Part shown: in pieces, positions 8,674 through 35,844 of the stretch
Layout of the letters: each line of letters begins with the position of its first letter
Numbering within the stretch: position 1 is the stretch's first letter
Assembly: GCA_963678705.1 (NCBI GenBank)
Contig: OY783220.1
Location: 248,001 to 312,000 of the forward strand
Direction of reading: 5' to 3'
Source of the DNA: Panorpa germanica
Lineage: Eukaryota; Arthropoda; Insecta; Mecoptera; Panorpidae
DNA length: 64,000 nucleotides
Notes under the pieces: generated by a model
Databases searched by the model: none
What the model saw: only the letters and a program-made list of their open reading frames with translations
What the model was told of the DNA's origin: nothing
Translations under genes and position numbers: made by a program

Positions 8674-8687
8674 ATAATAATGATAAT

Positions 8688-13359: not shown

Positions 13360-13362
13360 CTG

Positions 13363-14821: not shown

Positions 14822-14827
14822 GAAAAC
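14822..14827. repeat. 6-bp target site duplication, left (GAAAAC)
   Basis: GAAAAC directly precedes the element end AGTAGGTT. The same six bases follow the element at 34,581-34,586. Six bases is the duplication length known for Polinton/Maverick integration. Confidence 0.8.
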
Positions 14828-15506
14828 AGTAGGTTGAAAAAGCGGGTTCTGGCTTAAATTTGAGTCGAGTTGGTTGAGTTGGAAATTATTGGGGTGGGGA
14901 TTAATATAGGTCACGGTATGAAGAAGGGGGCGTGGCTAGACAATGTTGGGGGTAATAGTGGGGTGAGGAGTGTGATAAGACATAAGCTGTGTTGTGATTG
15001 GTTTAGAAGATGATGACCTCATTACAGACTTTATCTCTAGGTACAGTCTCTTTAATATCCTAGGATATGAGTGAGAAAGCAGTAATATGAAAGAGTGAGA
15101 TAGCGATAATAAGTATTACGTGTGTGTTAGTATTGGTGTAGAAGATATGGCCGTAATTATTGCATTCTTCGTCAATTTCCGGAAACCAATCGTTTATGTT
15201 CGTGTCCTAGATGTATCTGTGGATGCAGTCAGTATAAGATCATAGCGTATTTCTTATTATTAGTTGTAATTATGATTACGTTAAAAAGACATAGTTGGTA
15301 CTACTGCAAGTATATACTCATATATATTCCCACTTATGCATTTTGATGCATGTATGCATATGTAACGGGATTCTGTTGGTGGAGGTGGGATTTAATATGG
15401 AGTGGTAGAGATGGTAAATTCATGTATAAATGTCACTTAAATAGAGATGATGTTTAGATGTAATTACAGAGTAATGTTTTCTTAGTTCAAACTAAAGTTT
15501 AATAGT
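14828..15506. other. Left outer terminal region, non-coding
   Basis: Terminal ~680 bp before the first ORF, G-rich near the tip (GGGGTGGGG at 14,892-14,900). It presumably holds terminal recognition and promoter sequences. In the equivalent right-arm region (33,902-34,580) a short Cys-rich frame with a membrane segment is open; here it has a TAG. Confidence 0.6.
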
Positions 15507-15839
15507 ATGAACGGATTTAAGAATATTCCAGACGTAACATGGTTGTTGGATTCGGGGGATATACGCGTCGGCATTGATAGTGAAGATAGATATTATGTGC
15601 AGGATATAACTGACGATTTTGATATAGATGACTGTGATCCAGAGGATATGACGGATGAAGAAAAGAAGACATACGAGAAAATTATAGAGAGTTATGCTGA
15701 TGAAATATTAATAGGTCATGAAGAAATTGAAATACAGGAAGAAGATTCTGATGTGGAAATCATAGATTTATTAGAGAGTGATAGTGAAGTTATTGAAATA
15801 TTAGACTCGGACGATGAAACTGTACAAGTGTTAGACTGA
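15507..15839 (+). CDS. Acidic 110-aa protein with SUMO-interaction-like motifs (left arm)
   Basis: An intact 110-codon ORF, identical in predicted protein to the right-arm copy at 33,569-33,901. It is strongly acidic. Its last 30 residues hold three short hydrophobic patches each beside acidic/Ser runs: VEIIDLLESDSE, EVIEILDSDDE and VQVLD. These resemble SUMO-interacting motifs (V/I-x-V/I-V/I next to D/E/S). No membrane segment or enzyme motif is visible. It is the outermost gene of the arm and one of only two ORFs without a lesion. A role in binding SUMO-modified host proteins is inference; an acidic DNA-mimic or a transcriptional activation tail are alternatives. Confidence 0.7.
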   Translation: MNGFKNIPDVTWLLDSGDIRVGIDSEDRYYVQDITDDFDIDDCDPEDMTDEEKKTYEKIIESYADEILIGHEEIEIQEEDSDVEIIDLLESDSEVIEILDSDDETVQVLD

Positions 15840-16167
15840 TGACGAAATTGTAAAAGTATAACATAGTGATTAATGCATTTTTTTATGTAAAATTCTATAA
15901 ATAAATGAACTTTTAAAAGCAATTGTTATTTATATTTTGATTTTAAAACTGAAATATATAATTTAAAATGGATAACTGTTGTAAGATTATTAAGCATATG
16001 AGAACAATTATTGAACTGAAAAGTAATGCATTTAAGGTTGGGTTTTGAAATAAGTTTTAATAAATATAGTATAGGGAGGGGATTATAGTATATAAGCTGT
16101 AGATATTTTATATTTTCTTCAGTTACAAATAAATATTTTAACAAGTTTAACTAAACATTTTATAATA
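15840..16167. other. Spacer between the acidic ORF and the unknown large ORF
   Basis: AT-rich non-coding stretch of ~330 bp, mirrored at 33,241-33,568. Probably 3' end and promoter sequence. Confidence 0.5.
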
Positions 16168-17059
16168 ATGGCTTATCGTTACAAACCATATCCAATGTTT
16201 AATAAAAATAAAAAGTTAAGTTTTGATAGTGATGAATCCGATTATAAAATAATATATGATGATTCTATATATTTATTAAAATCATTATATTATTTAAATA
16301 ACAGTAAATCAAAACAAGCATTAGTTGGAATTAAAGTAAATAATTTATGTGAAGCCATTTTGAAAATAGAAAAGGTTAATGGAAATGGCGTTATTATATC
16401 AGAGCAGGATTGGAATACCCTGTTAAATAATAAAAACAACATTTCCAATTATTTTGAAGGAAGTGAATATTTAGATCAGCCTCACATAACCTTATCAAAT
16501 TACACAATACATTTTCAAACTTTCTATAAAAAGCCAACTATGGTTCTTGAAAAAAATATACAATGTTCACATCAATATTTGAATGAACAAAAACTTAAAT
16601 CATCTTCTGTTTATTTACAGAAAGAATCTTGGGACAACTTGCTTAATATATCTCATTGTATAACAGTGACATTAAAAAATTATAATTTGTGTTCTAAATT
16701 AGTGGATAAATCTTTATATCAAGTTCAAAATAATTTGTTTAATGTGTTAAAGGATACTCAAAGTATAAATTATAAAAATCACAATATTAATTTTTATGAG
16801 TGTTTTATTAAAAATAATATAAATAACCATATTGATTTAAATAATAATTTTAGCCATATATCATCAAAAATAAACTTGGAACTGTTGGAACAAGAAATAA
16901 AAATTTTGTGCATAGACTTTTTTAAAATTAAATTATACAATAACGCTCAAGAATATATATATAACTTATCAAAAAATTATTAACTGAATCATTAAATGCA
17001 GATATTGAGATACAGAATATATCAGAAATTACAACTTCTTTAAACAATGAGGAGGATTT
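16168..17059 (+). pseudogene. Unknown ~500-codon ORF, 5' part (left arm)
   Basis: Starts MAYRYKPYPMFNKNKK and runs 271 codons to a TAA at 16,981-16,983. Coding-like sequence resumes at once in another frame and continues into the copia insertion. Asn/Lys/Ile-rich composition; no enzyme motif, signal peptide or convincing membrane segment. The first 45 residues hold a basic then acidic stretch (KKLSFDSDESDYK). The same break exists in the right arm. I do not recognise the family. By position it could be a structural or replication-associated protein, but nothing in the sequence proves that. The copia target duplication GATTT ends this piece (17,055-17,059). Confidence 0.65.
17055..17059. repeat. 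Copia target site duplication, left (GATTT)
   Basis: GATTT before the left LTR and again after the right LTR. The uninterrupted right arm has it once. Five bases is the usual copia duplication. Confidence 0.9.
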
Positions 17060-17266
17060 TATTGAAGCAGATATTATATGCACAGTTATATATTAAATAT
17101 TTTATTAATTAATAAGTCCTCAGACTGAAATTATACAGAAAGTCCTCAGACAATATTTCTTATAGACATAAAACAATTGAATTTAATATAATAATTTTTT
17201 ATATAAACAAAAACAAAACAAGTTTAAGTAATTTAATTTAAGAATGAATGTATTGTAATTCCAACA
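17060..17266 (-). repeat. Copia 3' LTR
   Basis: 207 bp. On the minus strand it starts TGTTGGAATT and ends CTTCAATA. I see no difference from 21,455-21,661. It contains two GTCCTCAGAC-like repeats. Confidence 0.9.
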
Positions 17267-17275
17267 CACCCCCTC
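17267..17275 (-). other. Copia polypurine tract
   Basis: GAGGGGGTG on the minus strand, directly against the 3' LTR; primes plus-strand synthesis. Confidence 0.7.
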
Positions 17276-17295
17276 AAGACATTCATTTCAACAAT

Positions 17296-18435
17296 TTAAA
17301 TAATTTGAAGTCCCAATCCTTCAGTGAATTTTTCATGTAACTCTCTTGGCAGTGCTTTTGTTAAAATATCCGCAACCATTTCATTAGTTGATACATGACG
17401 TAATTTAATAATTCCTTCATCAACTACATCACGAACAAAATAATGACGAATATCTATATGTTTTGTACGTGCATGATAAATCGAGTTCATTGCCAGTTGT
17501 TCAGCTCCACGATTGTCAATTAATATTTTAATTTTCAAAAATTTTTCTTGCTCTAGTTCAGTCAATAAATCATTTAAATATATTGCTTCTTTTACAGCTT
17601 CTGATAAACTAACATATTCTGATTCAGTAGATGAAAGTGCCACAGTTCTTTGTTTTTGAGATTTCCAGCTCACAGCACCCCCTGCCAACATAAATACATA
17701 TCCAGAATATGATCTTCGATCTTCAAGACAACCTCCCCAATCAGCATCACAGTATCCAATCATAGATTTTGTTTCTTTAGTATAAAGTATTCCTAATTCT
17801 ATTGTACCAGCTAAATATCTCAATATTCTCTTAACTCCCAACCAATCTTGTTTACTTGGTTTGTTTACAAATTGAGCTAATCTTGAAACAGTATTTGCAA
17901 TATCTGGTCGAGTTCCAACCACTAAATACATTAGTGCTCCAATAACTTCTCTATAAAATTTACTATTAATTTCTTCTTTTTCAGTTGAATAAAATATTTT
18001 CTTCTTTTGTAATTCTGCTGGCGTTTTAACTGGATTGCAATTATTCATTTCATATTTTTTAAGTAAATTGATAATATATCTTGATTGATTAATAAAAATA
18101 TATTGATCTGATTGATTAATTTCTATTCCCAAACATTGTTTTGCAAGACCTAGATCCTTTATTTCAAATTCTTCTTGTAGTTTAATTTTAATTTCATCAA
18201 TCCAATCAACATCTGATGATGCAATTAAGAAATCATCAACATAAACTAGAAATAATAAAATATCTTTACCACGTTTTGTATAATACAAACAACTCTCCTT
18301 TTTTGTTGACTTTAGTCCAATACTTTCCAACTTATTTGATAATTTTTCATTCCATTGTCGAGCAGCTTGTTTAAGACCATAGAGAGCTTTATTTAATTTA
18401 CAAACATCACCTCCTTCTTCAATACATTTTAACAT
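17296..18435 (-). CDS. Copia pol, C-terminal part: reverse transcriptase core and RNase H
   Basis: A 379-codon frame. Reverse transcriptase motifs KLNKALYGLKQAARQW (~13-28) and the catalytic box LVYVDDFLIASS (~63-74, YVDD) are intact. RNase H follows with YCDADWGG (~228), ALSSTESEYVSLSEA (~268-282), the DNRGAEQL segment and the ARTKHIDIRHYFVRD box (~320-334) typical of copia. It overlaps the end of the upstream gag-pol frame by 7 bp in a different frame, at a run of A. In intact copia elements these are one polyprotein. The frame ends ~30 bp before the 3' LTR. The internal Met at 18,433-18,435 is unlikely to be a true start. Confidence 0.9.
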   Translation of the reverse strand: MLKCIEEGGDVCKLNKALYGLKQAARQWNEKLSNKLESIGLKSTKKESCLYYTKRGKDILLFLVYVDDFLIASSDVDWIDEIKIKLQEEFEIKDLGLAKQCLGIEINQSDQYIFINQSRYIINLLKKYEMNNCNPVKTPAELQKKKIFYSTEKEEINSKFYREVIGALMYLVVGTRPDIANTVSRLAQFVNKPSKQDWLGVKRILRYLAGTIELGILYTKETKSMIGYCDADWGGCLEDRRSYSGYVFMLAGGAVSWKSQKQRTVALSSTESEYVSLSEAVKEAIYLNDLLTELEQEKFLKIKILIDNRGAEQLAMNSIYHARTKHIDIRHYFVRDVVDEGIIKLRHVSTNEMVADILTKALPRELHEKFTEGLGLQII

Positions 18436-21419
18436 TTTTGTAGCTTTATTTTTTTTAATTCTTCAGACACCTGACTATCATCAATTATCCACATCAAAAT
18501 TTCATGTAGCATATCCGGTATTTCCATATAAACATTTTCTTCTAATATTCCATTTAAATAGGCAGTTACAACATCAAATTGTCTTATTACAAGTTTTAAT
18601 TCCACAGACAATGCAATTAAAAGTCTCATTGATTCCATTCTTGCAACTGGAGCAAAAGTTTGATCATAATCAATACCATATTTCTGACTATAACCTTTTG
18701 CAACAATACGAGCTTTTCTTTTTTCAATAAGCCCATCTGATCCAAATTTATTTGTTAAAATCATTCGACTTCCCACAACACTTTGACCTTCAGGTAATTT
18801 TACAATATTCCAAGTATCATTTTTTAATAAACTTATGACTTCTGATTTAATTGCTCTCTTCCACTCAGCACACTCTTGAGAATTAATAGCATCTTCCAAT
18901 TTAACTTCAGCTACTCCAACAAATATATTATCATTATCATTATCATCTTCATTAGAATCAGATTCAATCCTTTCTTTAACTTCACAATTATTAATTTTTG
19001 AAAATAATTTTCTGGGACGTCCTTTCAAACCTGTTTTAATTAATTTTGGTCTTCCTGGTCCTCTTCTTTCTTCTCTAGTATATTCTCTTGAGTTTCTTCT
19101 AGGAGTTTCTTGAATAGATGATTGAATACCAGATGAATTTTCATTTTCTTCATTATCTTCTAAATTTTCTTCTGGAATTCCATCTAAAGTTTCTGTCTCA
19201 TTACTATTTTTAAATCCTGTTATCAATTCAATCCATGGTTTATCCTTGTTTTCAAAATCATTAATAATCAGCTGTTTAATCTCTTGGTTCTTTAAAACTG
19301 TAGTAACATTATCTTCAATAAATTTCACATCACGAGCAACAATAAATTTTCTCTTTTCTGGTAACCAAATTCTGTATCCTTTTGATTCACGTGGATAACC
19401 TACAAAAATTCCTTTCATTGATCTATCAGATAATTTGCCTTTTGTTGGATCTTTATCTAAGACATATACAGTTGATCCAAATGCTCGTAAATAATTTAAA
19501 TGAACTTTATCCCTGTTGAACCATCTCTGATAAGGAGTATCTCCATTAATACTTCTTGAAGGACATCTGTTTCTCAAATGACATGCTGTAGCTACAGCAT
19601 CAGTCCAAAACATATCCGATAAATTTGATTGAAGTAATAAACATCGTCCCATTTCAACTAATGTTCGATTTAAACGTTCAGCAACACCATTTTGCTGAGG
19701 TGTTCTTACAACACTTAATCGACGTTGAATACCTTGATTACGCAGGAAAGAATCCATCTCAGTATTACAATACTCTTTACCATTATCACTTTGAAGATAC
19801 TTAATCTTCTTCCCTGTCATACGTTCAGCTTGATTTTGATACATTTTGAAAGCTTCTAGTGCACCACTCTTCTGTTTAAGAAAGTATACTTCACACCATC
19901 GAGAATAATCATCAATAAATGTAATAAAATATTTTGCTCCATTCACTGATTGTGTCCTAAACGGTCCAACAATATCTGTATGAACTATTTCAAGAAGTTC
20001 TTCACTCTGTCGTTCACTTCCTGAAAACGGTAACCCTGTCATCTTGCCTCGTAGACACACTTCACATCTTGACAAACATTTCAATTGTTCAGAGGTTACT
20101 TTACTTGTAGTATTCTGATTAATCACCCGAAATAAATCCTTAGCATTTAAATGACCCATACGACAATGCCACATCAATAACTCAGAATTAGCTTTATCTT
20201 CTCCAATACAAGCTTCTTCATTACCTTCTTGTAAATAATAGAGATCACTACGCCTTTCAGCAACAAATTTAACATTTCCAGTCATATCCATAATTACAGC
20301 TGAATCTTTTTTAAATAGAATTTCATGATCCTTATTAGTAATTTTAGCAACTGATACTAGATTTGACCTTAAATCTGGTACAAATAATGTGTTTGAAAAA
20401 TCTACTGACCTCAGCTGTTTACCATTACTAATCGACAAATTAACAGTACCTTTTCCTTTGATTTCACTATTTGCTTGATTAGCCAAATTTATTTTCCCAC
20501 TAATTTCTTCATTTAAAGACTTAAATAATTGTTTATCACCACATAAATGTGTTGTACAGCCACTATCAAGAATCCAAGGTCGACAACTTGGAACACTACC
20601 AGCAAATTCAACATTAAATACTGCAAAAGTATCATCATCCGCTTGAGAACATTGGTTTTCTTGTGTGTATCTATTCTGTCTATCTGGTCTATTTCTTCTG
20701 AAATTTGGTTTCAATTGAGTTGGGCATTCAGGAGACTTATGTCCTTGTTTTCCACATTTAAAACAATATCCTTTAAAAATATTTTTGTAACTCGGTTGAT
20801 TTTCAGCCCTTACATTTCCAGCTAACTCAACAACTGAATTTGAACCAATTTCACTCTTCTCAAGTATCTTAACCTTAAGAGCTTCAACCTCCAAGAGTTC
20901 ATCACGTGATTCCATAGCACATTTAAAACCTTCATAGCTATCTGGTAGACTATATAATAACATTACAGACAATAAATCTTTATTCACTTCAATATCCATA
21001 GCTCCAAGTCGATCAACTATATCCGAAAACTTGTTTACATGATCCCTGACATCACCACCTTCAGACATCTTGTGAAGCATAAGTTGCTTAAGTAATAAAG
21101 CTTTTCTTGCAGGTCCTTTGGAAGCATAAACTGAGGCAAGTTTTTTCCAAACTTCATGAGAAGTATTACAACCTCGGACATGCTGCAATTCCGTTGAACT
21201 AATTGCTAATATTACTTCTGACTTAGCTTTACGATCAATTTTTATCCATCCATTTCTTTCTTCTTGATTATTTTCCGCAGCAACAGGAATCGGTTTTTCA
21301 CCACTGACATATTCCCACAAATCATTTTTGATCAATAGCGCCTCAACATGAATTTTCCAGGCTTCATAATTGTCCTTACTCAACAGCTCAAATCTTGTAG
21401 CACTCACTGATGTCGTCAT
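18429..21419 (-). CDS. Copia gag-protease-integrase and reverse transcriptase N-terminus
   Basis: A 996-codon polyprotein starting MTTSVSATRFELLSKDNYEAW, 35 bp after the 5' LTR. In order: the copia gag domain (1-~200), a CCHC knuckle CFKCGKQGHKSPEC (~220), aspartic protease WILDSGCTTHLC (~284), the integrase zinc region with HCRMGHLNAKDL and CEVCLRGKM (~410-455), the integrase core with HTDIVGPF, QSDNGKEYC and PQQNGVAERLNR (D-D-E), and the start of reverse transcriptase with KARIVAKGYSQKYGIDYDQTFAPV (written here only to name the box). The frame ends ~20 residues after YMEIP, where an eight-A run on the coding strand (near 18,450-18,457) gives a plausible slip point. The remaining pol frame continues at 18,435. 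Confidence 0.95.
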   Translation of the reverse strand: MTTSVSATRFELLSKDNYEAWKIHVEALLIKNDLWEYVSGEKPIPVAAENNQEERNGWIKIDRKAKSEVILAISSTELQHVRGCNTSHEVWKKLASVYASKGPARKALLLKQLMLHKMSEGGDVRDHVNKFSDIVDRLGAMDIEVNKDLLSVMLLYSLPDSYEGFKCAMESRDELLEVEALKVKILEKSEIGSNSVVELAGNVRAENQPSYKNIFKGYCFKCGKQGHKSPECPTQLKPNFRRNRPDRQNRYTQENQCSQADDDTFAVFNVEFAGSVPSCRPWILDSGCTTHLCGDKQLFKSLNEEISGKINLANQANSEIKGKGTVNLSISNGKQLRSVDFSNTLFVPDLRSNLVSVAKITNKDHEILFKKDSAVIMDMTGNVKFVAERRSDLYYLQEGNEEACIGEDKANSELLMWHCRMGHLNAKDLFRVINQNTTSKVTSEQLKCLSRCEVCLRGKMTGLPFSGSERQSEELLEIVHTDIVGPFRTQSVNGAKYFITFIDDYSRWCEVYFLKQKSGALEAFKMYQNQAERMTGKKIKYLQSDNGKEYCNTEMDSFLRNQGIQRRLSVVRTPQQNGVAERLNRTLVEMGRCLLLQSNLSDMFWTDAVATACHLRNRCPSRSINGDTPYQRWFNRDKVHLNYLRAFGSTVYVLDKDPTKGKLSDRSMKGIFVGYPRESKGYRIWLPEKRKFIVARDVKFIEDNVTTVLKNQEIKQLIINDFENKDKPWIELITGFKNSNETETLDGIPEENLEDNEENENSSGIQSSIQETPRRNSREYTREERRGPGRPKLIKTGLKGRPRKLFSKINNCEVKERIESDSNEDDNDNDNIFVGVAEVKLEDAINSQECAEWKRAIKSEVISLLKNDTWNIVKLPEGQSVVGSRMILTNKFGSDGLIEKRKARIVAKGYSQKYGIDYDQTFAPVARMESMRLLIALSVELKLVIRQFDVVTAYLNGILEENVYMEIPDMLHEILMWIIDDSQVSEELKKIKLQKC

Positions 21420-21440
21420 ATTAATTTTTTTAATTAAAGC

Positions 21441-21454
21441 CTGGGCCCATAACC
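21441..21454 (-). other. Copia primer-binding site (initiator-Met tRNA anticodon arm)
   Basis: The plus strand reads CTGGGCCCATAACC directly beside the 5' LTR. This equals the anticodon stem-loop of eukaryotic initiator tRNA-Met (CAT anticodon inside), so the element RNA pairs with the middle of that tRNA. Half-tRNA priming of this kind is known for Drosophila copia. Confidence 0.9.
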
Positions 21455-21661
21455 TATTGAAGCAGATATTATATGCACAGTTATATATTAAATATTTTAT
21501 TAATTAATAAGTCCTCAGACTGAAATTATACAGAAAGTCCTCAGACAATATTTCTTATAGACATAAAACAATTGAATTTAATATAATAATTTTTTATATA
21601 AACAAAAACAAAACAAGTTTAAGTAATTTAATTTAAGAATGAATGTATTGTAATTCCAACA
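21455..21661 (-). repeat. Copia 5' LTR
   Basis: 207 bp, the same as 17,060-17,266 by eye. Contains the promoter for the minus-strand element. Confidence 0.9.
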
Positions 21662-21666
21662 GATTT
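21662..21666. repeat. Copia target site duplication, right (GATTT)
   Basis: Second copy of GATTT, followed by the resumed sequence of the palindrome arm (TAATAC). Confidence 0.9.
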
Positions 21667-22295
21667 TAATACAAATTTGACTCCTTCTAAATTAACAGCA
21701 GTTCCATTTTTATTTAATGAAGTACCTATATTATTAAAGGAAGATATGTATTCAATCAAAATAGGATTAAACTGTACTAATCAGTTTGAACCAGAAATTT
21801 ATATTTACAATAAATACAATTTTGGGGCTAAAATTCAGTTTAGGTGATTATTTTGAACTTATAGAGCACATACAACAATTGATTAATATGTTTATTGGAC
21901 AATTGTTTATATCATCCAATGTTCTAATAGGATCAAACTATAAAATAAATATATTTAATCTAAATAGTATTTCAATTACATCAAATTGTAAAACTTATGT
22001 ATTAGTATTTTTAAATATTTTTGATTTAATACATTTCTTATCTTTAAATGATTATATTAATGCTATTGGTAAACATTTTTCTGAAATGCAAATTGATTTG
22101 TTTAATACATATAATATATTTTTAAATAGTATTGTAATGTATTTAAAAAATAAAAATATTGGTGTTTCGAAAGAGATTTTGACTCAATTTTTATTTTACG
22201 AATGTAAAGAGTTAAATTCTAATGATATATTATTAAAAATGATAATAATTTCAAACATGTCGTATATATTAGAAGAAATATCAAAACTGTTGTAA
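21667..22295 (+). pseudogene. Unknown ~500-codon ORF, 3' part (left arm)
   Basis: Continuation of the ORF begun at 16,168. The first ~60 codons run in one frame to a TGA at 21,845-21,847. Coding then continues in another frame for ~150 codons to a TAA at 22,293-22,295; that frame is open from 21,786. The last part is rich in Leu/Ile/Asn with amphipathic, helix-like stretches (FNTYNIFLNSIVMYLKNK). The right arm has the same breaks. No known domain recognised. Confidence 0.6.
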
Positions 22296-22351
22296 TTACT
22301 TAATTTATAATATATATATATATAAATTTAAAATGTATATAATTCTTTTAT

Positions 22352-22717
22352 TTATTTATTTATTAGGGTATAACTACATCCATTAGAATCATAATATAAC
22401 ATATAATTACAATCATAACAGTTTCTTATTTGACATGGAGGACCATCTCTTTGCATGTTTCCTTTGTTATAATGTTTGTAACATAATCGACGTCCTTGTA
22501 TATTTTGATTTTCTTTTAAATACATTGGAGGCCGGTTCCAGTTTTGTTCAATATCGGTAGAGAACATTATATAATGCAAGAAAAACTCTGTCGGTAAATA
22601 ATGTAATTCTTCATCAGTAAGATTTTCTAGTAAACACTCATTTTCTTTATATTTTTTTAAAATAGCTCCAACTTTTGAAATCGTTTTCGAAACTTGTTCA
22701 TGATCATTTAAACCCAT
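22352..22717 (-). CDS. 121-aa Cys-rich protein, opposite strand (left arm)
   Basis: An intact 121-codon ORF convergent with the large unknown ORF and divergent from the ATPase. The first half is Leu/Glu-rich and probably helical (MGLNDHEQVSKTISKVGAIL). The second half has a Cys cluster, with C at about 80, 96, 101, 104 and 114, spaced like a small zinc-binding fold (CQIRNCYDC). The right-arm copy differs at four residues, all conservative enough to keep the frame. The ATG lies inside the first of a series of 11-bp iterons, so its start and its promoter overlap. Function unknown; a DNA-binding regulator or packaging accessory protein is possible. Confidence 0.65.
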   Translation of the reverse strand: MGLNDHEQVSKTISKVGAILKKYKENECLLENLTDEELHYLPTEFFLHYIMFSTDIEQNWNRPPMYLKENQNIQGRRLCYKHYNKGNMQRDGPPCQIRNCYDCNYMLYYDSNGCSYTLINK

Positions 22718-22786
22718 TACGTTTAATTTACGTTCAAATTACGTTCCCATTACGTTGAGTTTACGTTCAAATTACGTTCCCATATA
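22715..22786. promoter_or_regulatory. Divergent promoter with 11-bp ACGTT/AACGT iterons (left arm)
   Basis: Six to seven units of about 11 bp (TTACGTTCAAA, TTACGTTCCCA and similar) between the 121-aa ORF and the ATPase. The same units make up the central arrays at 26,828-27,219. Likely protein-binding sites for transcription or replication (inference). Confidence 0.6.
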
Positions 22787-22857
22787 ATATTTTCATATAT
22801 AAAGATTAAATATTTAAAACGTATTTTATTACTTTATAACACATGCCTGGTTAAACA

Positions 22858-23559
22858 ATGAAGTTTATAAAGCAAAAAGAAACTCTTTCTGTAAAAAATA
22901 TTGATAATCAAAGTAATAATTACACTAATAATTCAAAACATGGATCAATATTACCAAATGACATTAGATGCATTATTTGTGGACCTTCAAACTGTGGAAA
23001 AACTAATGTTATGTTTAATCTAATTGAACATCCAAATGGGTTGCGATTTAAAAATATATACATTTATTCAAAATCTTTATATCAACCAAAATATAAAATA
23101 TTACAACAAATTATGAAGAATATTAATGGTATGGGATACTATACATACACTGACAATGAAGAGATTATTAGACCTGAAGATGCTAGCCCAAATTCTATAT
23201 TCATATTTGATGATGTTGCTTGCGATAAACAAAATAATATTCGAAATTTTTTTAGCATGGGCCGTCATAATTTGATAGACTCTTTCTATTTATGTCAGAC
23301 TTACAGCAAAATTCCAAAGCAATTAATACGGGATAATACTAATTTTATTATATTATTCAAGCAAGATGACTTAAATTGAAAGCATATATATGATGATCAT
23401 GTTAACTTTGACTTTCCAAGTTTTCTAGAGTTTAAACAAGTTTGTAATTTATGTTGGGATTCAAATAAATATTCCTTTATGGTAATAGATAAAAATAGTG
23501 ACTTAAATAACGGGCGATACAGAAAAGGATTTGATATGTTTTTAGATATAACCAAGTAA
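22858..23559 (+). pseudogene. A32/FtsK-like DNA packaging ATPase (left arm, one in-frame stop)
   Basis: Starts MKFIKQKETLSVKNID. Walker A is CIICGPSNCGKTNVM (~39-53), followed by NGLRFKNIYIYSKSLYQPKY, a signature of Polinton/adintovirus ATPases. Walker B is SIFIFDDVACDKQ (~117-129), and the sensor-like SMGRHNLIDSFYLCQTY follows. The frame has a TGA at 23,377-23,379 and then continues with conserved-looking sequence to a TAA at 23,557-23,559, ~233 codons in all, the usual family size. In related elements it pumps the DNA genome into a capsid, but no capsid gene is visible here. The same TGA occurs in the right arm. PolB follows directly. Confidence 0.85.
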
Positions 23560-23576
23560 TCTTTACAATAATATTT

Positions 23577-26021: not shown

Positions 26022-26594
26022 TACTAATTTTAAGTTAAGTTTAAGTTTTGTATAAATTTATATCTGTTTTAGTTAAGATAATTAAAATGTATATTTATAT
26101 AACAATTTAAAAATAGCATATTTGTAAACAAATAATAATATATAAACACAAACCATTGAGTTTTATTATTATAAGATTTAATGTTTTAATACATCCATAT
26201 AAAATAAGATACATATATTTTATTAGTAATGTTTTGTTATATATAATTCTTATATGATTAACACTGGTCATAAGAGCTCTAATATATATGCATAGACATA
26301 TTAATGTATGAGTATGCGTACATAAACTGCATGACAATTGTATACGTTATATGCAGGAGCAGTACCCAAATCAATTCATTAGTGAATGCAGGCATGTCAA
26401 AAAACCAATATTTCATTTATTATTATCATACCAACGTAATGGGAATGTAACTTGGAATATTGGAATAGTGGTGTAGGTTAGGTTACACACCCGCGGAGCG
26501 AGATTTAGTTTAGAGCCCAAACCCAGGCCCAGACCCCTACCCGGGCCACCCCACTTGGGTCCGCACCAGGACCCCCCGCCCCAATCTGTACCCT
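26022..26594. other. Left inner non-coding region, GC-rich near the centre
   Basis: AT-rich after PolB, then a GC-rich stretch (26,490-26,590) beginning GTAGGTTAGGTTACAC, with many C-runs. Mirrored at 27,440-28,000. Confidence 0.6.
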
Positions 26595-26648
26595 CTCTTT
26601 CTCTCTCTGTGCCTGTCTCTGTAGCTGTCTCTCTAGCTGTCTCTCTAG

Positions 26649-26705
<57 letters not shown>

Positions 26706-26745
26706 GCTATCTCTCTTTCTCTCTCTATCTCTGTTTGTCTATCTA
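26595..26745. repeat. (CT)n microsatellite, left of centre
   Basis: Long CT dinucleotide tract with TAGCTGT/TAGCTAT interruptions. The inverted counterpart is the (GA)n at 27,300-27,432. Confidence 0.9.
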
Positions 26746-26827
26746 GCTGTGGGTCTGGGCTCTAAACTGCCTAAGATTGTGGTTTTTTAAGTCAGTCAAC
26801 ATTGTGACATACAAACTTTAAATAGTT

Positions 26828-27023
26828 CGAACGTAACTTGAACGTAATGGGAACGTAACTTGAACGTAATTCAACGTAACTTGAACGTAATGGGAACGTA
26901 ACTTGAACGTAATGGGAACGTAACTTGAACGTAATTCAACGTAACTTGAACGTAATGGGAACGTAACTTGAACGTAATGGGAACGTAACTTGAACGTAAT
27001 GGGAACGTAACTTGAACGTAATT
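26828..27023 (+). repeat. Central iteron array, left half
   Basis: About 18 units of ~11 bp alternating GAACGTAACTT with GAACGTAATGG or GAACGTAATTC. ACGTAA recurs about once per helical turn. Confidence 0.9.
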
Positions 27024-27039
27024 CTAAAATAAATACTCT
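27024..27039. other. Symmetry centre of the palindrome
   Basis: A 16-bp spacer (CTAAAATAAATACTCT) between the two inverted iteron arrays. It is short enough to form a hairpin loop if the arms ever fold. Confidence 0.7.
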
Positions 27040-27219
27040 ACGTTACGTTACGTTCAAGTTACGTTCCCATTACGTTCAAGTTACGTTGAATTACGTTCAA
27101 GTAACGTTCCCATTACGTTCAAGTTACGTTCCCATTACGTTCAAGTTACGTTCCCATTACGTTCAAGTTACGTTGAATTACGTTCAAGTTACGTTCCCAT
27201 TACGTTCAAGTTACGTTCG
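27040..27219 (-). repeat. Central iteron array, right half
   Basis: Reverse complement of the left array with about 16 units (CATTACGTTC, AAGTTACGTTC). Slightly shorter than the left half, so the arrays have gained or lost units. Confidence 0.9.
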
Positions 27220-27299
27220 AACTATTTAAAGTTTGTATGTCACAATGTTGACTGACTTAAAAAACCACAATCTTAGGCAGTTTAGAGCCCAGACCCACA

Positions 27300-27341
27300 G
27301 CTAGATAGACAAACAGAGATAGAGAGAGAAAGAGAGATAGC

Positions 27342-27388
<47 letters not shown>

Positions 27389-27432
27389 CTAGAGAGACAG
27401 CTAGAGACAGGCACAGAGAGAGAAAGAGAGGG
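27300..27432. repeat. (GA)n microsatellite, right of centre
   Basis: Mirror of the left (CT)n tract; slightly shorter. Confidence 0.9.
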
Positions 27433-28001
27433 TACAGATTGGGGCGGGGGGTCCTGGTGCGGACCCGGGTGGGGTGGCCCGGGTAGGGGTCTGGGCCTGG
27501 GTTTGGGCTCTAAACTAAATCTCGCTCCGCGGGTGTGTAACCTAACCTACACCACTATTCCAATATTCCAAGTTACATTCCCATTACGTTGGTATGATAA
27601 TAAGAAATGAAATATTGGTTTTTTGACATGCCTGCATTCACTAATGAATTGATTTTGGTACTGCTCCTGCATATAACGTATACAATTGTCATCCAGTTTA
27701 TGTACGCATACTCATACATTAATATGTCTATGCATATATATTAGAGCTCTCATGACCAGTGTTAATCATATAAGAATTATATATAACAAAACATTACTAA
27801 TAAAATATGTGTATCTTATTTTATATGGATGTATTAAAACATTAAATCTTATAATAATAAAACTCAATGGTTTGTGTTTATATATTATTATTTGTTTACA
27901 AATATGCTATTTTTAAATTGTTATATAAATATACATTTTAATTATCCTAACTAAAACAGATATAAATTTATACAAAACTTAAACTTAACTTAAAATTAGT
28001 A
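27433..28001. other. Right inner non-coding region
   Basis: Inverted counterpart of 26,022-26,594, GC-rich then AT-rich up to the PolB stop codon. The short open frame at 27,686-27,916 has a mirror-image copy in the left arm and no recognisable domain. Confidence 0.6.
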
Positions 28002-30440
28002 CTAAATTTTATAATGTTCATGTGCTAAAGTACTTATACCATCAGTTAATACATATCTTTTATTATCATTTCCACTAAGACCTACTTTACTTATCATTTG
28101 AGTATAAATTGTATGCTTAATCGATTTAAAGGTATTCATTGTGATCAATAATATGTTATCCTGAGATAAACAATTTACATAATCTTTAATATTGAATTTG
28201 TTTACAATATTTTTCTTAATTCCTTTTGCTTTAGCTGTGCATGAACCCTCAATATCAATTGCATACATTTTTGACCTTAACCCAACAAACTCCCAAATTA
28301 TACTACCCGCGCATACATCTTTCATTAAGCCTAATTTAGCTTTGTTCATTAAAGGTAATGAAAATTCATTATTAAATGGATAATTAGATGTATCAAATTT
28401 ATCTAGATTACACTTAATATCGTCATATATATCATCTGCTTTAATTTGATATATTAATGAATCTGTATCTGTATACAACAATTTAGCATTACCTTTATAG
28501 ACTTTTTTGATGAAATCATAATGAAAATCGTATATTAAAGTTTTTGATATATCAAGTACACTTAATCCTAAATACAATGGTTTATTATAAAAAACTTTAA
28601 GTTTTTGCATTTGAATAGCAACTAAGTTTTCATGAAATATAGAACAACTATGATAGTTTGGTTTACTTATAAGTGTATTAGCACCCATTTTATGTCCTAT
28701 ATTATCCCAATGAGTTATTAACTTTACATCGACACGTTTATCTACATTCTCCATTGTTTTCCCATAAACTGAATTATTCATTAATTTAAAAAAGTCTTTC
28801 TCAAATGTATTTGCAGAGTTCTTTCTTTTTAATGTATTTAGATCAATATAACTTTTTAACCAATCAGACTGTTTAAATTCCAAAATTCTATGAATTTTAT
28901 CTATTTTCAGATTATTTTTAAGACATTGCTTTAACGATCTATAGTGAAGCACATAATTATACTTGTTATTTAGATTTGGTATTAATTTAACGTCATTTGT
29001 TTTAATGCAAGGTGGTTTAATATTTTCAGCACAGAAAGGTAGATCATTGTGTTCATCGTGCAAATAATTAGGATATCTTAAATCGACTTCTAATATATAA
29101 CCAACATCTGAGTTATCTTCAATAGCTTCTACATTAAATGTTTGTAATTTATATGTATCTAACCATTTAAATCCCTCATGTGGTAAATATTGACTCATAG
29201 CCCAACCATATAAGTTATTTGCATCCCAATACATTAAATATTGAGAATCTCTATTTGAATCATAATTGGACATATATTTATTATTTGCAATTCCATGTCT
29301 GTGAGAGCATTGTGAAATTCCACCTCTTATACCTTTTTTAATAAAATGTAACATATTAATATCTGTTAAAAGTTCTAATTCAATACTTGTATACTTTAAC
29401 ATAGCATCCCAAAAAAGTCCTGGTGCTGTATAATATTGACAGGGATCTAAATTATATGTTTTATAGCACACATCTCGAAAATTTTCAAAAATATCTGTTA
29501 ACAACAGAACATCGATCTTTAAATATAAGTCTGAATATTCCCCCAATGTTTTCATTTCAAATGCATACCAAACCATTTTGGCATGATTGTAATCATCGTC
29601 AGATATATTACAGCCATTAAGTGAGCTATAAAAATTATTTTGAGATGGCAAGTCAGATTCATTCAGCATATCCCTACTATTTACATATTCAAAAGGAAAT
29701 ACACGTTTTAATAAATTAAAATGATTTTCATTCGGATAGAATTTTTTTAATTCGAAAAATTGTTCTGATAATAAATTTTTTGCAAGTGTTTCTAAACTAG
29801 AATGCATAAATCGTAAAGAATCAATAAATCTAAGTTTAATATAGCAGTTATGAACTTTATCATTTTTATCGACTTTTGATTCCACCAAAATATGTTTCGT
29901 AAAAGATATATACTTTTCCTTATTTTATGGAATAACTTCAATTTTTTCACTATCATTACCTAATTCTTTTACAATTATATGGCTATCGTAATTACTTAAG
30001 TTATGGAATATGACAGGTATAAACTTTGGAATTGTAAATTTTAAATTGCAATGATTATGAGCAGCTCCTCGGTAATTACCAGTTAAGTGACAATGATCTA
30101 ACACTTTATCACCATTGAGGATACCTTCACAAATATGGCAAATAGAAGCTTCATCATATTCCTGTTTTTGCCAATCAGATAATTTATTTAAAGGCTTCAC
30201 TTTATTTAAGACTTTATAAATTTGTTTAGCGTCTTCAGTTATTGTTTCAATAAATACTTTAACGCAATTAATACCTCTGTACGTAACAAACTTACTTAAG
30301 GAATCATTAAAGGAACATTTAATATAATAAGCAAAAGAATATGGTTCATGAATTTGAATATTATTTGAAAATGATGTATTAGTTTCAGGATAACAAGTAC
30401 TAATGGATTTTAATAATGTTTCAAAATCTCCATATATCAC
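28002..30440 (-). pseudogene. Protein-primed type DNA polymerase B (right arm, one in-frame stop)
   Basis: Right-arm counterpart of 23,577-26,021, with the same internal TAA (at 29,925-29,927). Motif C is the canonical YTDTDSLIY here. On the other hand, a 6-bp deletion removes Lys-Gly before VFPFEYV, which the left arm keeps. Other differences are few (for example SNRDS/SNKDS, HYDFIKK/HYEFIKK). Exonuclease motif I, the DHCHLTGNYRGAAH segment and polymerase motifs A and B match the left arm. It ends with HEHYKI, and the N-terminus is missing as in the left arm. Neither arm has an uninterrupted polymerase. Confidence 0.9.
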
Positions 30441-30457
30441 AAATATTATTGTAAAGA

Positions 30458-31159
30458 TTACTTGGTTATATCTAAAAACATATCAAATCCTTTTCTGTAT
30501 CGCCCGTTATTTAAGTCACTATTTTTATCTATTACCATAAAGGAATATTTATTTGAATCCCAACATAAATTACAAACTTGTTTAAACTCTAGAAAACTTG
30601 GAAAGTCAAAGTTAACATGATCATCATATATATGCTTTCAATTTAAGTCATCTTGCTTGAATAATATAATAAAATTAGTATTATCCCGTATTAATTGCTT
30701 TGGAATTTTGCTGTAAGTCTGACATAAATAGAAAGAGTCTATCAAATTATGACGGCCCATGCTAAAAAAATTTCGAATATTATTTTGTTTATCGCAAGCA
30801 ACATCATCAAATATGAATATAGAATTTGGGCTAGCATCTTCAGGTCTAATAATCTCTTCATTGTCAGTGTATGTATAGTATCCCATACCATTAATATTCT
30901 TCATAATTTGTTGTAATATTTTATATTTTGGTTGATATAAAGATTTTGAATAAATGTATATATTTTTAAATCGCAACCCATTTGGATGTTCAATTAGATT
31001 AAACATAACATTAGTTTTTCCACAGTTTGAAGGTCCACAAATAATGCATCTAATGTCATTTGGTAATATTGATCCATGTTTTGAATTATTAGTGTAATTA
31101 TTACTTTGATTATCAATATTTTTTACAGAAAGAGTTTCTTTTTGCTTTATAAACTTCAT
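30458..31159 (-). pseudogene. A32/FtsK-like DNA packaging ATPase (right arm, one in-frame stop)
   Basis: The first 173 residues are the same as in the left arm, with Walker A GPSNCGKT and Walker B SIFIFDDV. The same TGA (30,638-30,640) cuts the frame, with the C-terminal ~60 codons continuing to the stop at 30,458-30,460. The identity of the lesion in both arms means it was present before the arms were last alike. Confidence 0.85.
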
Positions 31160-31230
31160 TGTTTAACCAGGCATGTGTTATAAAGTAATAAAATACGTTT
31201 TAAATATTTAATCTTTATATATGAAAATAT

Positions 31231-31302
31231 TATATGGGAACGTAATTTGAACGTAAACTCAACGTAATGGGAACGTAATTTGAACGTAAATTAAACGTAA
31301 TG
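31231..31302. promoter_or_regulatory. Divergent promoter with 11-bp iterons (right arm)
   Basis: GGGAACGTAATTTGAACGTA-type units mirrored from 22,715-22,786, again running into the ATG of the 121-aa ORF. Confidence 0.6.
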
Positions 31303-31665
31303 GGTTTAAATGATCATGAACAAGTTTCGAAAACGATTTCAAAAGTTGGAGCTATTTTAAAAAAATATAAAGAAAATGAGTGTTTACTAGAAAATCTTAC
31401 TGATGAAGAATTACATTATTTACCGACAGAGTTTTTCTTACATTATATAATGTTCTCTACCGATATTGAACAAAACTGGAACCGGCTTCCAATGTATTTA
31501 AAAGAAAATCAAAATATACAAGGACGTCAATTATGTTACAAACATTATAACAAAGGAAACATACAAAGAGATGGTCCTCCATGTCAAATAAGAAACTGTT
31601 ATGATTGTAATTATATGTTCTATTATGATTCTAATGGATGTAGTTATACCCTAATAAATAAATAA
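31300..31665 (+). CDS. 121-aa Cys-rich protein, opposite strand (right arm)
   Basis: Same frame as the left-arm copy, with four substitutions (Pro/Leu, Arg/Gln, Met/Ile, Leu/Phe). All five Cys of the CYKHYNK...CQIRNCYDC region and the late Cys are kept. The ATG is inside an iteron (GTAATGGG). Intact in both arms, unlike its larger neighbours, either by chance for a short frame or because it is useful. Function unknown. Confidence 0.65.
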   Translation: MGLNDHEQVSKTISKVGAILKKYKENECLLENLTDEELHYLPTEFFLHYIMFSTDIEQNWNRLPMYLKENQNIQGRQLCYKHYNKGNIQRDGPPCQIRNCYDCNYMFYYDSNGCSYTLINK

Positions 31666-31719
31666 ATAAAAGAATTATATACATTTTAAATTTATATATA
31701 TATATTATAAATTAAGTAA

Positions 31720-33240
31720 TTACAACAGTTTTGATATTTCTTCTAATATATACGACATGTTTGAAATTATTATCATTTTTAATAATATATCATTAGAATT
31801 TAACTCTTCACATTCGTAAAATAAAAATTGAGTCAAAATCTCTTTCGAAACACCAATATTTTTATTTTTTAAATACATTACAATACTATTTAAAAATATA
31901 TTATATGTATTAAACAAATCAATTTGCATTTCAGAAAAATGTTTACCAATAGCATTAATATAATCATTTAAAGATAAGAAATGTATTAAATCAAAAATAT
32001 TTAAAAATACTGATATATAAGTTTTACAATTTGATGTAATTGAAATACTATTTGGATTAAATATATTTATTTTATAGTTTGATCCTATTAGAACATTGGA
32101 TGATATAAACAATTGTCCATTAAACATATTAATCAATTGTTGTATGTGCTCTATAAGTTCAAAATAATCACCTAAACTGAATTTTAGCCCCAAAATTGTA
32201 TTTATTGTAAATATAAATTTCTGGTTCAAACTGATTAGTACAATTTAATCCTATTTTGATTGAATACATATCTTCCTTTAATAATATAGGTACTTCATTA
32301 AATAAAAATGGAACTGCTGTTAATTTAGAAGGAGTCAAATTTGTATTAAAATCCTCCTCATTGTTTAAAGAAGTTGTAATTTCTGATATATTCTGTATCT
32401 CAATATCTGCATTTAATGATTCAGTTAATAATTTTTTGATAAGTTATATATATATTCTTGAGCGTTATTGTATAATTTAATTTTAAAAAAGTCTATGCAC
32501 AAAATTTTTATTTCTTGTTCCAACAGTTCCAAGTTTATTTTTGATGATATATGGCTAAAATTATTATTTAAATCAATATGGTTATTTATATTATTTTTAA
32601 TAAAACACTCATAAAAATTAATATTGTGATTTTTATAATTTATACTTTGAGTATCCTTTAACACATTAAACAAATTATTTTGAACTTGATATAAAGATTT
32701 ATCCACTAATTTAGAACACAAATTATAATTTTTTAATGTCACTGTTATACAATGAGATATATTAAGCAAGTTGTCCCAAGATTCTTTCTGTAAATAAACA
32801 GAAGATGATTTAAGTTTTTGTTCATTCAAATATTGATGTGGACATTGTATATTTTCTTCAAGAACCATAGTTGGCTTTTCATAGAAAGTTTGAAAATGTA
32901 TTGTGTAATTTGATAAGGTTATGTGAGGCTGATCTAAATATTCAATTCCTTCAAAATAATTGGAAATGTTGTTTTTATTATTTAACAGGGTATTCCAATC
33001 CTGCTCTGATATAATAACGCCATTTCCATTAACCTTTTCTATTTTCAAAATGGCTTCACATAAATTATTTACTTTAATTCCAACTAATGCTTGTTTTGAT
33101 TTACTGTTATTTAAATAATATAATGATTTTAATAAATATATAGAATCATCATATATTATTTTATAATCGGATTCATCACTATCAAAACTTAACTTTTTAT
33201 TTTTATTAAACATTGGATATGGTTTGTAACGATAAGCCAT
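31720..33240 (-). pseudogene. Unknown ~500-codon ORF (right arm, uninterrupted by copia)
   Basis: Starts MAYRYKPYPMFNKNKK at 33,240. The first frame ends at a TAA at 32,425-32,427. Coding resumes in a second frame for ~80 codons, then in a third for ~150 codons to 31,720. The positions of both breaks match the left arm. Substitutions against the left arm are few (for example EGI/EGS, FYEK/FYKK). The total coding length, about 500 codons, makes it the second-largest gene of the arm. No recognisable domain; I cannot say whether it is structural. Confidence 0.65.
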
Positions 33241-33568
33241 TATTATAAAATGTTTAGTTAAACTTGTTAAAATATTTATTTGTAACTGAAGAAAATATAA
33301 AATATCTACAGCTTATATACTATAATCCCCTCCCTATACTATATTTATTAAAACTTATTTCAAAACCCAACCTTAAATGCATTACTTTTCAGTTCAATAA
33401 TTGTTCTCATATGCTTAATAATCTTACAACAGTTATCCATTTTAAATTATATATTTCAGTTTTAAAATCAAAATATAAATAACAATTGCTTTTAAAAGTT
33501 CATTTATTTATAGAATTTTACATAAAAAAATGCATTAATCACTATGTTATACTTTTACAATTTCGTCA

Positions 33569-33901
33569 TCAGTCTAACACTTGTACAGTTTCATCGTCCG
33601 AGTCTAATATTTCAATAACTTCACTATCACTCTCTAATAAATCTATGATTTCCACATCAGAATCTTCTTCCTGTATTTCAATTTCTTCATGACCTATTAA
33701 TATTTCATCAGCATAACTCTCTATAATTTTCTCGTATGTCTTCTTTTCTTCATCCGTCATATCCTCTGGATCACAGTCATCTATATCAAAATCGTCAGTT
33801 ATATCCTGCACATAATATCTATCTTCACTATCAATGCCGACGCGTATATCCCCCGAATCCAACAACCATGTTACGTCTGGAATATTCTTAAATCCGTTCA
33901 T
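33569..33901 (-). CDS. Acidic 110-aa protein with SUMO-interaction-like motifs (right arm)
   Basis: Predicted protein identical to the left-arm copy at 15,507-15,839, including the SDVEIIDLLESDSEVIEIL region. Intact start and stop. Two identical copies in a decayed element could reflect recent arm homogenisation or constraint. Confidence 0.7.
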   Translation of the reverse strand: MNGFKNIPDVTWLLDSGDIRVGIDSEDRYYVQDITDDFDIDDCDPEDMTDEEKKTYEKIIESYADEILIGHEEIEIQEEDSDVEIIDLLESDSEVIEILDSDDETVQVLD

Positions 33902-34580
33902 ACTATTAAACTTTAGTTTGAACTAAGAAAACATTACTCTGTAATTACATCTAAACATCATCTCTATTTAAGTGACATTTATACATGAATTTACCATCTC
34001 TACCACTCCATATTAAATCCCACCTCCACCAACAGAATCCCGTTACATATGCATACATGCATCAAAATGCATAAGTGGGAATATATATGAGTATATACTT
34101 GCAGTAGTACCAACTATGTCTTTTTAACGTAATCATAATTACAACTAATAATAAGAAATACGCTATGATCTTATACTGACTGCATCCACAGATACATCTA
34201 GGACACGAACATAAACGATTGGTTTCCGGAAATTGACGAAGAATGCAATAATTACGGCCATATCTTCTACACCAATAATAACACACACGTAATACTTATT
34301 ATCGCTATCTCACTCTTTCATATTACTGCTTTCTCACTCATATCCTAGGATATTAAAGAGACTGTACCTAGAGATAAAGTCTGTAATGAGGTCATCATCT
34401 TCTAAACCAATCACAACACAGCTTATGTCTTATCACACTCCTCACCCCACTATTACCCCCAACATTGTCTAGCCACGCCCCCTTCTTCATACCGTGACCT
34501 ATATGCATCCCCACCCCAATAATTTCCAACTCAACCAACTCGACTCAAATTTAAGCCGGAACCCGCTTTCTTAACCTACT
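33902..34580. other. Right outer terminal region, non-coding or weakly coding
   Basis: Mirror of 14,828-15,506. A frame at 34,062-34,286 (minus) encodes a Cys cluster (CSCPRCICGC) followed by a hydrophobic segment (IIAYFLLLVVIMITL). It has no ATG at its start, and the left arm has a TAG in it, so it is not called as a gene. Confidence 0.5.
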
Positions 34581-34586
34581 GAAAAC
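34581..34586. repeat. 6-bp target site duplication, right (GAAAAC)
   Basis: Directly follows the element terminus AACCTACT; identical to 14,822-14,827. Confidence 0.8.
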
Positions 34587-34993: not shown

Positions 34994-35120
34994 TTGTGCT
35001 TAATGTATTTATACAAGATACTAGAATTTACCCCCGTCGCCAGCGACGACTGTTTTTTGTGCTTAATGTATTTATACAAGATACTAGAATTTAACCCCGT
35101 CGCAAGCGACGACTGCCTTT
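34994..35120 (-). repeat. 63-bp tandem duplication of a Helitron 3' end and its flank
   Basis: The stretch TTGTGCTTAATGTATTTATA...CTAG...CCCCGTCGC-AGCGACGAC occurs twice, 63 bp apart. Each copy holds a GTCGCnnGCGAC hairpin and a CTAG (35,021-35,024 and 35,084-35,087). Confidence 0.8.
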
Positions 35121-35844
35121 TGTGTGTGAATTAAATTTCATTTCAAATTTTAATTCTATTTTTAAATTAAAATATTTAACTCGTTCCATATTTATTTTAC
35201 ATATAACAACAAATAATTTTTCATATAAACTGACTAAAAAAATAAATATTTTTTATAATTTTTTCATTATTTGACCAACTATTTTTCAAAATTTGGGATT
35301 TTTTTTTCTATTTGTAAATTAGGTATCAAAGTTAGCCTATATATAAAATTTCAACTTTCTAGCTCAATTTTTTCACTCGGCAAAAAACCGCCCACGTGCC
35401 CCGAAATAAAATTTGTGAATTTTGATTTTTTTCTTTTTTTTAACATATATCATTATTAAGTAATCCGAAATTTGAGTTTCTCTAAAGTATCCTACCGAGC
35501 TTTCTAATTTTCTGAGCGCCCATTTTTCCAATTTTTCAAAAATTGTTAGCATCGAACACTGTAATACACATGGGCGTACAATTCACCTTTTTATCTTTTA
35601 CGAATTAAAAGTTATATTGCAAAAGTAAAAAATTTTTTTTAGTTTTTCCAAAATTACGGATTTCTAGGAAATTCAGGGTAAAATCTGGGGACGGCAAAAG
35701 TCTTAGAATTTTTTCTCTACTGAATGGACAGTTTTCAGGAAAATGCGCGGAGCCGTTTTCGAGCCACCATACGAATCGCGTAAACATATAAACAAACAAA
35801 CAAATAAACATATAAACTTTCACTTAGAACATTATAATATAAGA
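35021..35844 (-). mobile_element. Short non-autonomous Helitron, single copy (same family as the array at 53.5-58.2 kb)
   Basis: On the minus strand it begins TCTTATATTATAATGTTC and ends with a GTCGC-GCGAC hairpin followed by CTAG. Internal strings such as the region around CGAAAACGGCTC are shared with each unit of the 53.5-58.2 kb array. 5' TC, a 3' hairpin and CTAG are Helitron hallmarks. No coding capacity. Confidence 0.8.

Follow-up and report, generated by a model that had tools for sequence, protein, structure and literature searches.

Palindromic genomes are known from protein-primed replicons: incomplete adenovirus particles contain palindromic subgenomic DNAs, and yeast linear plasmids yield hairpin and palindromic-dimer derivatives, all arising by snap-back and carrying two identical ends. 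These molecules are extrachromosomal, whereas the palindromes considered here, from the genome of Panorpa germanica, are multicopy and integrated with target duplications. The analyzed stretch (the window) comprises 64,000 nucleotides of contig OY783220.1 (assembly GCA_963678705.1, positions 248,001 to 312,000 of the forward strand), and the element in question occupies its positions 14828-34580. It is probably one copy of a multicopy, palindromic and integrase-less Polinton/Maverick derivative that replicates via snap-back hairpins and is inserted by a helper.

Polintons (Mavericks, polintoviruses) are defined by a DNA polymerase of the PolB type, an rve integrase and terminal inverted repeats (TIRs), and rve integrases typically give 6-bp duplications, as stated in the accessible part of PMC12220804. 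Their size of 15-20 kb and their gene set are given in PMC4028283, and giant transposons are reviewed in PMC6431247, both likewise accessible in part. The element resembles Polintons in its protein-primed PolB (pPolB), A32-like packaging ATPase piece, 6-bp duplication, size and inverted ends, and its terminus type and genes are common to the ordinary Polintons of the same genome. It differs in that, an inserted Copia aside, it is all inverted duplication and has no single-copy core. Long TIRs (hundreds to thousands of bp) together with 5-6-bp duplications have been described for Polinton-like viruses (PMC12220804), but according to its accessible text that study kept elements with a 6-80 kb insert between TIRs of 100 bp-8 kb, so that a full palindrome falls outside its filter. 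Invertron plasmids such as pAL2-1 share a terminal protein, a DNA polymerase, strand-displacement replication and panhandle or racquet-shaped intermediates (PMC1864894), yet they are mitochondrial, and the available text describes neither a palindromic genome nor a 6-bp integrase duplication for them. Foldback-type elements such as Galileo also possess long, internally repetitive inverted repeats, but they encode relatives of the P-element transposase, and the available part of their description does not mention pPolB. The accessible parts of PMC2836005 and PMC12721341 contain nothing on palindromes, and a literature search judged by titles and abstract openings, with subscription journals mostly outside it, found no palindromic Polinton.

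Inverted-repeat comparison of the window with itself delimits an inverted duplication of 19.75 kb, or 15.15 kb minus Copia, which is inside the Polinton/Maverick size. The element ends AG...CT: both ends start AGTAGG..., with the terminus AGTAGGTT... at 14828 and 34580, and a 6-bp target-site duplication, GAAAAC, lies outside both. The initial annotation had these coordinates and this duplication exactly, and its conclusion that the element inserted as a palindrome agrees with GAAAAC flanking the whole. The entire arms are inverted, being detected as the pairs 14827-17061/32347-34581 and 21662-26733/27290-32353 plus the centre. Their outer part is 99.55% identical over 2235 bp (10 mismatches), and their inner part is 99.2% identical over 4929 bp with the centre repeats excluded and 98.6% over 5349 bp with them included. 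Two arms of ~7.6 kb had been proposed; they are inverted and near-identical as stated, and the right one measures ~7.5 kb, but the left one spans 12.2 kb because a Copia retrotransposon inserted there alone (17060-21661, own duplication GATTT, long terminal repeats (LTRs) identical over 207 bp). The idea that the additional 4.6 kb of the left arm are the element's own polymerase was rejected, as they are Copia. The element is composed as follows (ORF, open reading frame; aa, amino acids; RT, reverse transcriptase):

14822-14827, no strand: left target-site duplication GAAAAC (flank letters)
14828-17059, forward: left arm outer part with terminus AGTAGGTT..., acidic ORF (15486-15839) and 271-aa ORF (16168-16983)
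17060-21661, reverse: Copia LTR retrotransposon with gag, integrase and RT in ORFs 18429-21419 and 17296-18435
21662-22783, forward: left arm, remainder of the frame-shifted 276-aa-type ORF (with 21786-22295)
22352-22738, reverse: left arm 128-aa ORF
22858-23379, forward: left arm A32-like packaging ATPase (Pfam PF04665, E 3e-8)
23573-26590, forward: left arm EndoVII and protein-primed PolB piece, starting at the mosaic junction 23573
26593-27021, no strand: left inner flank, CT repeats and 11/22-bp GAACGTAACTT array
27022-27042, no strand: asymmetric block on the palindrome axis
27043-27430, no strand: right inner flank, inverted 11/22-bp array and AG repeats
27431-30444, reverse: right arm EndoVII and PolB piece, ORFs 28002-29888 and 29925-30440
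30638-31159, reverse: right arm A32-like ATPase, translation identical to the left-arm ORF
31160-34580, reverse: right arm outer part with 128-aa ORF, frame-shifted 276-aa-type ORF, 271-aa ORF (32425-33240), acidic ORF and terminus
34581-34586, no strand: right target-site duplication GAAAAC (flank letters)

Genome-wide comparison (464 Mb, 249 contigs) confirmed that the palindrome is real, neither an artefact nor unique. The counts of places given here are scored places, in most cases drawn from a longer candidate list. The genome holds three kinds of elements, namely ordinary Polintons with integrase and capsid genes, a palindromic family that we call family B, and the window type. Two polymerase matches that are pieces of others were dropped before counting (72 to 70), as were three matches to the 271-aa gene (145 to 142). 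The polymerase common to family B and the window type was scored at 70 places (2022 candidates), and 50 of these form 25 tail-to-tail pairs, next to one direct and no head-to-head pair. As the 25 pairs, the window's included, have no head-to-head counterpart, chance is excluded. The list also includes further window-type copies, for example at C6:17.30 Mb and on C38, because this type shares the gene. Family-B termini were scored 40 times (62 candidates), with 30 of them in 15 convergent pairs. Fourteen of these pairs enclose two inverted polymerase genes, and the fifteenth spans 33 kb, with an ordinary Polinton end located at the centre repeats.

Besides its terminus (AGTAGAGGG...), a family-B arm comprises a 153-bp tandem array with 9.5 to 18.5 units, a single EndoVII-PolB gene (1279 codons) and, at the centre, an array of 11-bp repeats; its ORF listing contains no long ORF besides the polymerase. 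Ten family-B palindromes were read. Both ends are visible in seven, and four of the seven have matching 6-bp duplications, all different (TTTGTA, TGCAAC, TATAAA and CACGTC). A second window-type palindrome (C5:11.46 Mb) has TCCGTT on both sides, while for the C3 copy of this type no duplication was scored as its left end was not found in the stretch fetched. Related palindromes thus occur at many sites, some with other 6-bp duplications, which is what the initial annotation had proposed to search for. It had also named a finding that would speak against it, namely other copies that all have single-copy genes and short TIRs; this holds for the ordinary Polinton read and fails for both palindromic families. 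The window-type junction between ATPase and PolB was scored at 40 places at ≥99% (880 candidates), 14 of which lie in seven inverted pairs. The 271-aa gene (142 places) gives 12 convergent, three divergent and five direct pairs. We considered single family-B places (~20 unpaired) as unfolded progenitors and rejected this after reading four of them: L032 is half a palindrome cut at the axis beside a repeated flank, L031 joins a family-B arm, at its centre repeats, to the end of an ordinary Polinton and has a second family-B terminus 33 kb off, L034 is a mosaic, and L033 has a polymerase with neither array nor terminus within the stretch read. Separately, some palindromes lie beside a tandem repeat (L032:1-2220, L009, L019 and L020; unit ~1.1 kb in L020) that recurs at several insertion sites, possibly reflecting a target preference.

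The polymerase of family B looks conserved and working, judging by its coding sequence. In 17 of 17 palindrome arms read, out of the 20 arms of ten palindromes, the frame is open; C144 right, C6b right and C13a right, with frames that are shorter or interrupted, were left out as the start of the match was not clean. Four comparisons of palindromic copies with one another gave ratios of non-synonymous to synonymous differences (pN/pS) of 0.34-0.41. Together with the open frames, this makes family B appear a lineage rather than debris. The PolB piece of the window carries NNLYGWAMS, NNSVYGK and DTDS/T, which we take to be polymerase motifs. A structural model of its 630 aa (pLDDT 86.6) has phi29 DNA polymerase as the nine best PDB matches, the complex with the terminal protein included (TM 0.43-0.48 by query length); a PDB search by sequence alone returned zinc fingers and one weak polymerase-delta match. 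Relatives of the polymerase occur in beetles, moths, butterflies, a hoverfly and a mealybug, with at most 56% identity among the 120 listed of 448.

In the window copy itself, the polymerase is broken. A stop separates the EndoVII part from the PolB part (630 aa left, 628 aa right), falling between 23577-24092 and 24129-26021 in the left arm, and the right arm has the same stop. Similarly, the frame that reads as 276 aa in an ordinary Polinton is shifted at the identical place in both arms. The damage therefore predates the last equalizing of the arms. Besides the polymerase region, each arm comprises the acidic ORF, the 271-aa ORF, the frame-shifted 276-aa-type ORF, the 128-aa ORF on the opposite strand and the ATPase, which is shortened at its C end compared by eye with that of the ordinary Polinton L029. 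Among the scanned window ORFs, the only Pfam match to an rve-type integrase is inside the inserted Copia, and no Pfam match to a cysteine protease was obtained, small ORFs of no identified family being present. For packaging and capsid, the copy has the ATPase piece and no match to the L029 capsid part.

The arm is a mosaic of ordinary-Polinton pieces and a family-B polymerase. Compared with the ordinary Polinton read as L029/L030, pieces of which match the left outer part (14828-17059), it runs from a right-end outer part over the 271/276-aa genes from near the left end to the ATPase region, and then continues with the polymerase of the other family, family B. This last piece is ~98.3% identical to the family-B palindromes; no match to family B longer than 150 bp at E 1e-10 was listed beyond the polymerase and centre-repeat stretch. 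No DNA match was found to the integrase part or the capsid part of the ordinary Polinton. The initial view of a Polinton with every gene doubled does not survive these observations, i.e., the missing integrase and capsid matches, the mosaic arm and the broken frames. By sequence likeness, the window type derives from ordinary Polintons living in the same genome. A public protein search with 1130 candidates returned nothing related to the 271-aa protein (16168-16983) at E 0.001. In a separate comparison, two relatives that lie in viral contigs (L041, L042) showed no inverted repeats of at least 60 bp.

The two arms of one copy are alike as a pair. We compared the arms of the ten family-B copies and the window over 4350 bp of the polymerase region (2949 bp in the window, 4238 bp in C6b). 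Nine copies have 0, 0, 0, 1, 1, 2, 5, 8 and 18 differences between their arms and a tenth has 0 of 2474, the exception being C82, a hybrid of two subgroups, with 28. The partner arm is strictly the nearest for 16 of the 22 arms, tied for three and not nearest for three, and the summed within-copy distance of the 11 copies is lower than in all 20,000 random pairings. Array lengths differ from copy to copy but agree within each (17.5/17.5, 14.5/14.5, 14.5/14.5, 10.4/10.5, 11.5/12.5 and 9.5/10.5 units, with 13.5/11.5 in the hybrid C82). Counting complete arrays only (C5a right is cut by the contig end), the match within the seven copies measurable on both sides was equalled in 10 of 20,000 shuffles. 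Left and right arms are hence not two separate lineages, and the palindrome is not a one-time origin copied inertly without conversion.

The axis block at 27022-27042 contains the 17-mer TAAAATAAATACTCTAC at 27025, its single occurrence in the window. In the ordinary Polinton, a 17-bp stretch identical to these positions (27025-27041) ends one base upstream of an ATG that shares the frame of the capsid ORF. In the window and in six of the ten family-B copies, the asymmetric axis block lies in one orientation (in C6b twice, in direct order) and includes TAAAATAAATACTCTAC; one of the two C6b copies has an additional A. The remaining four (C82, C144, C209 and C7a) carry the block twice, inverted, around a new axis ~20 bp from the middle of the block; only C7a among them has a matching duplication. 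An inverted double block is what would be expected from a fold-back just beyond the old loop, so that the palindromes were probably re-formed at least once. Folded as a single strand, the 421-nt centre of the window element gives one long hairpin (-214.7 kcal/mol, z -33).

An ordinary Polinton (L029, L030) encodes an rve-chromo integrase, and a double-jelly-roll (DJR) capsid ORF of 295 aa (PF21738, 6e-100); it also has a gene resembling phospholipase A2, an A32-like ATPase and, split over two ORFs, a divergent EndoVII-PolB. The window terminus type is found again, at 90-98%, in a further 39 scored rows, one of them the right end of the window element (912 candidates; 40 long rows of 56 were taken). 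Some of these termini form convergent pairs, of which C5:20144413-20161638 contains one scored integrase match and one partial, damaged 271-aa match. None of the 90 scored places of the ordinary PolB (1838 candidates) is in a tail-to-tail pair within 6 kb; extending the range to 20 kb gives three convergent pairs plus a divergent and a direct one. One of the convergent ones, at C2 (10.88-10.89 Mb), contains two integrases facing outward and may represent either an integrase-bearing palindrome or a pair of adjacent Polintons. The integrase (128 scored, 2462 candidates) forms five head-to-head pairs at 3.35-3.67 kb (C1:22185962-/22189323+, C3:21679050-/21682403+, C5:8302658-/8306323+, C1:8793702-/8797180+ and C6:20807448-/20810816+), one at 11.9 kb, one tail-to-tail pair at 9.8 kb and two direct pairs. 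The five close pairs are possibly a third palindrome type that carries the integrase. Three 271-aa genes in direct order on C142 (310965, 327215 and 343494, all forward), spaced by 16.25-16.28 kb, are perhaps a tandem array of whole Polintons.

To our knowledge, the mode of Polinton replication is largely untested. That palindromes transpose, inserted as a unit with a 6-bp duplication, is well supported, and for replication and insertion we infer the following mechanism. A phi29-type protein-primed polymerase would start at the identical termini. The displaced strand, being self-complementary, would snap back and form a hairpin, one end of which stays open to replication. In this hairpin, arm mismatches would be paired and therefore repaired, while the short asymmetric loop at the axis would escape repair. 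Occasional folding at another point could create a different axis and yield a palindrome whose halves both stem from a single arm. Finally, the rve integrase of ordinary Polintons may act in trans on the AG...CT ends and insert the palindrome. The same genome contains a candidate helper, the ordinary Polinton that encodes an rve integrase and a DJR capsid ORF, as well as elements with the window terminus type that enclose integrase matches. A head-to-head dimer formed during protein-primed replication, as suggested in the initial annotation, fits this scheme; of its other suggestion, a capsid-less palindromic lineage, family B is an example.

Several observations weigh against replication by snap-back and insertion by a helper. 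Neither a replication intermediate nor a terminal protein nor an excision event was observed, and helper action in trans is deduced because no integrase was found. Three of the seven family-B palindromes with visible ends (C82, C144 and C209, on contigs <135 kb) lack matching duplications, and the arms of C82 derive from different subgroups; recombination between copies, or mis-assembly, also occurs. Of the 40 window-type junctions, 26 lie outside convergent pairs, as do most of the 142 scored places with the 271-aa gene. All three single family-B arms read have a broken polymerase frame, and in three comparisons with two of them pN/pS is 0.35, 0.54 and 0.58, the latter two values involving one broken arm. 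The 6-kb control with the ordinary PolB is imperfect: up to 20 kb this gene has three convergent pairs, and palindromes built differently could be spaced more widely. Furthermore, gene conversion between the arms after insertion would equally make them alike.

Such conversion is the main rival, applicable to any single copy. Long inverted repeats convert readily, and the palindrome might have arisen once, as a head-to-head dimer or hairpin, and then travelled as inert cargo of helper Polintons, with conversion equalizing the arms and no regular fold-back. The unmirrored axis block of the window and six of the ten family-B copies agrees with this, as it indicates that the axis is not remade every cycle. 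The shifted second axis common to four copies, however, points to at least one re-folding; in copies such as C10 (0 differences between the arms, at least five to any other arm compared) the arms are already alike in a copy-specific way, and array lengths are nearly matched. Both window arms also have the same broken frames, though conversion could spread these too. We consider a one-time origin rather unlikely. Alternatively, the palindromes could be defective-interfering by-products, accidental snap-back deletions made anew by ordinary Polinton replication and dying where they landed. Defective-interfering snap-back genomes are marked by two copies of one parental end, internal deletions or rearrangements, and dependence on a helper; of these marks, the window copy shows the same-end structure and a rearrangement joining non-adjacent Polinton pieces. 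Its genes are also broken. Further palindrome types are hinted at by the five integrase pairs in head-to-head order. Yet the same mosaic junction recurs at 40 scored places at ≥99%, and the 14 family-B terminus pairs with two inverted polymerase genes follow one design, these genes being mostly intact in the arms read, with a pN/pS of ~0.35. Recurrent junctions and a single design point to lineages rather than one-off accidents, which makes this alternative improbable.

Palindromes are classic long-read artefacts, produced by a missed adapter or a fold-back read, and the three family-B copies on short contigs lacking matching duplications would suit such an origin. It is contradicted by six sites that differ in their flanks and have matching 6-bp duplications, by the Copia in one arm only and by the 10 mismatches in the outer 2235 bp. 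Two independent head-to-head insertions would have left termini at the centre, where neither terminus motif occurs with fewer than nine errors in 25 bases. For the window copy, both explanations were rejected on these grounds, and we regard them as very improbable.

Elsewhere in the window, a second, decayed inverted repeat (7582-14333, 78-95% identity by piece) lies immediately left of the element. A diverged tandem array occupies 53531-58195 (repeats 80-93% identical) and has an inverted relative at 35075-35845. At 41669-44165, a hAT transposase C-terminal region is located next to a Helitron-like N-terminal domain on the same strand.

As to its kind, the window element is a Polinton variant, most likely a satellite living as a palindrome. 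Somewhat doubtful, in our estimation, is the further step of a separate class of mobile elements: a protein-primed replicon whose working genome would be a half-length hairpin, with one terminal-protein end and one loop, and whose integrated form would be the palindromic dimer, a polymerase-only satellite that borrows the Polinton integrase and may form a multipartite set with integrase-bearing palindromes. Fold-back hairpins are expected for protein-primed linear DNA, and palindromic lineages with alike arms would constitute a natural record of this replication intermediate. They would likewise be a case of a Polinton satellite that has retained its own polymerase but no integrase, and they demonstrate that very long palindromes are able to multiply within an animal genome.

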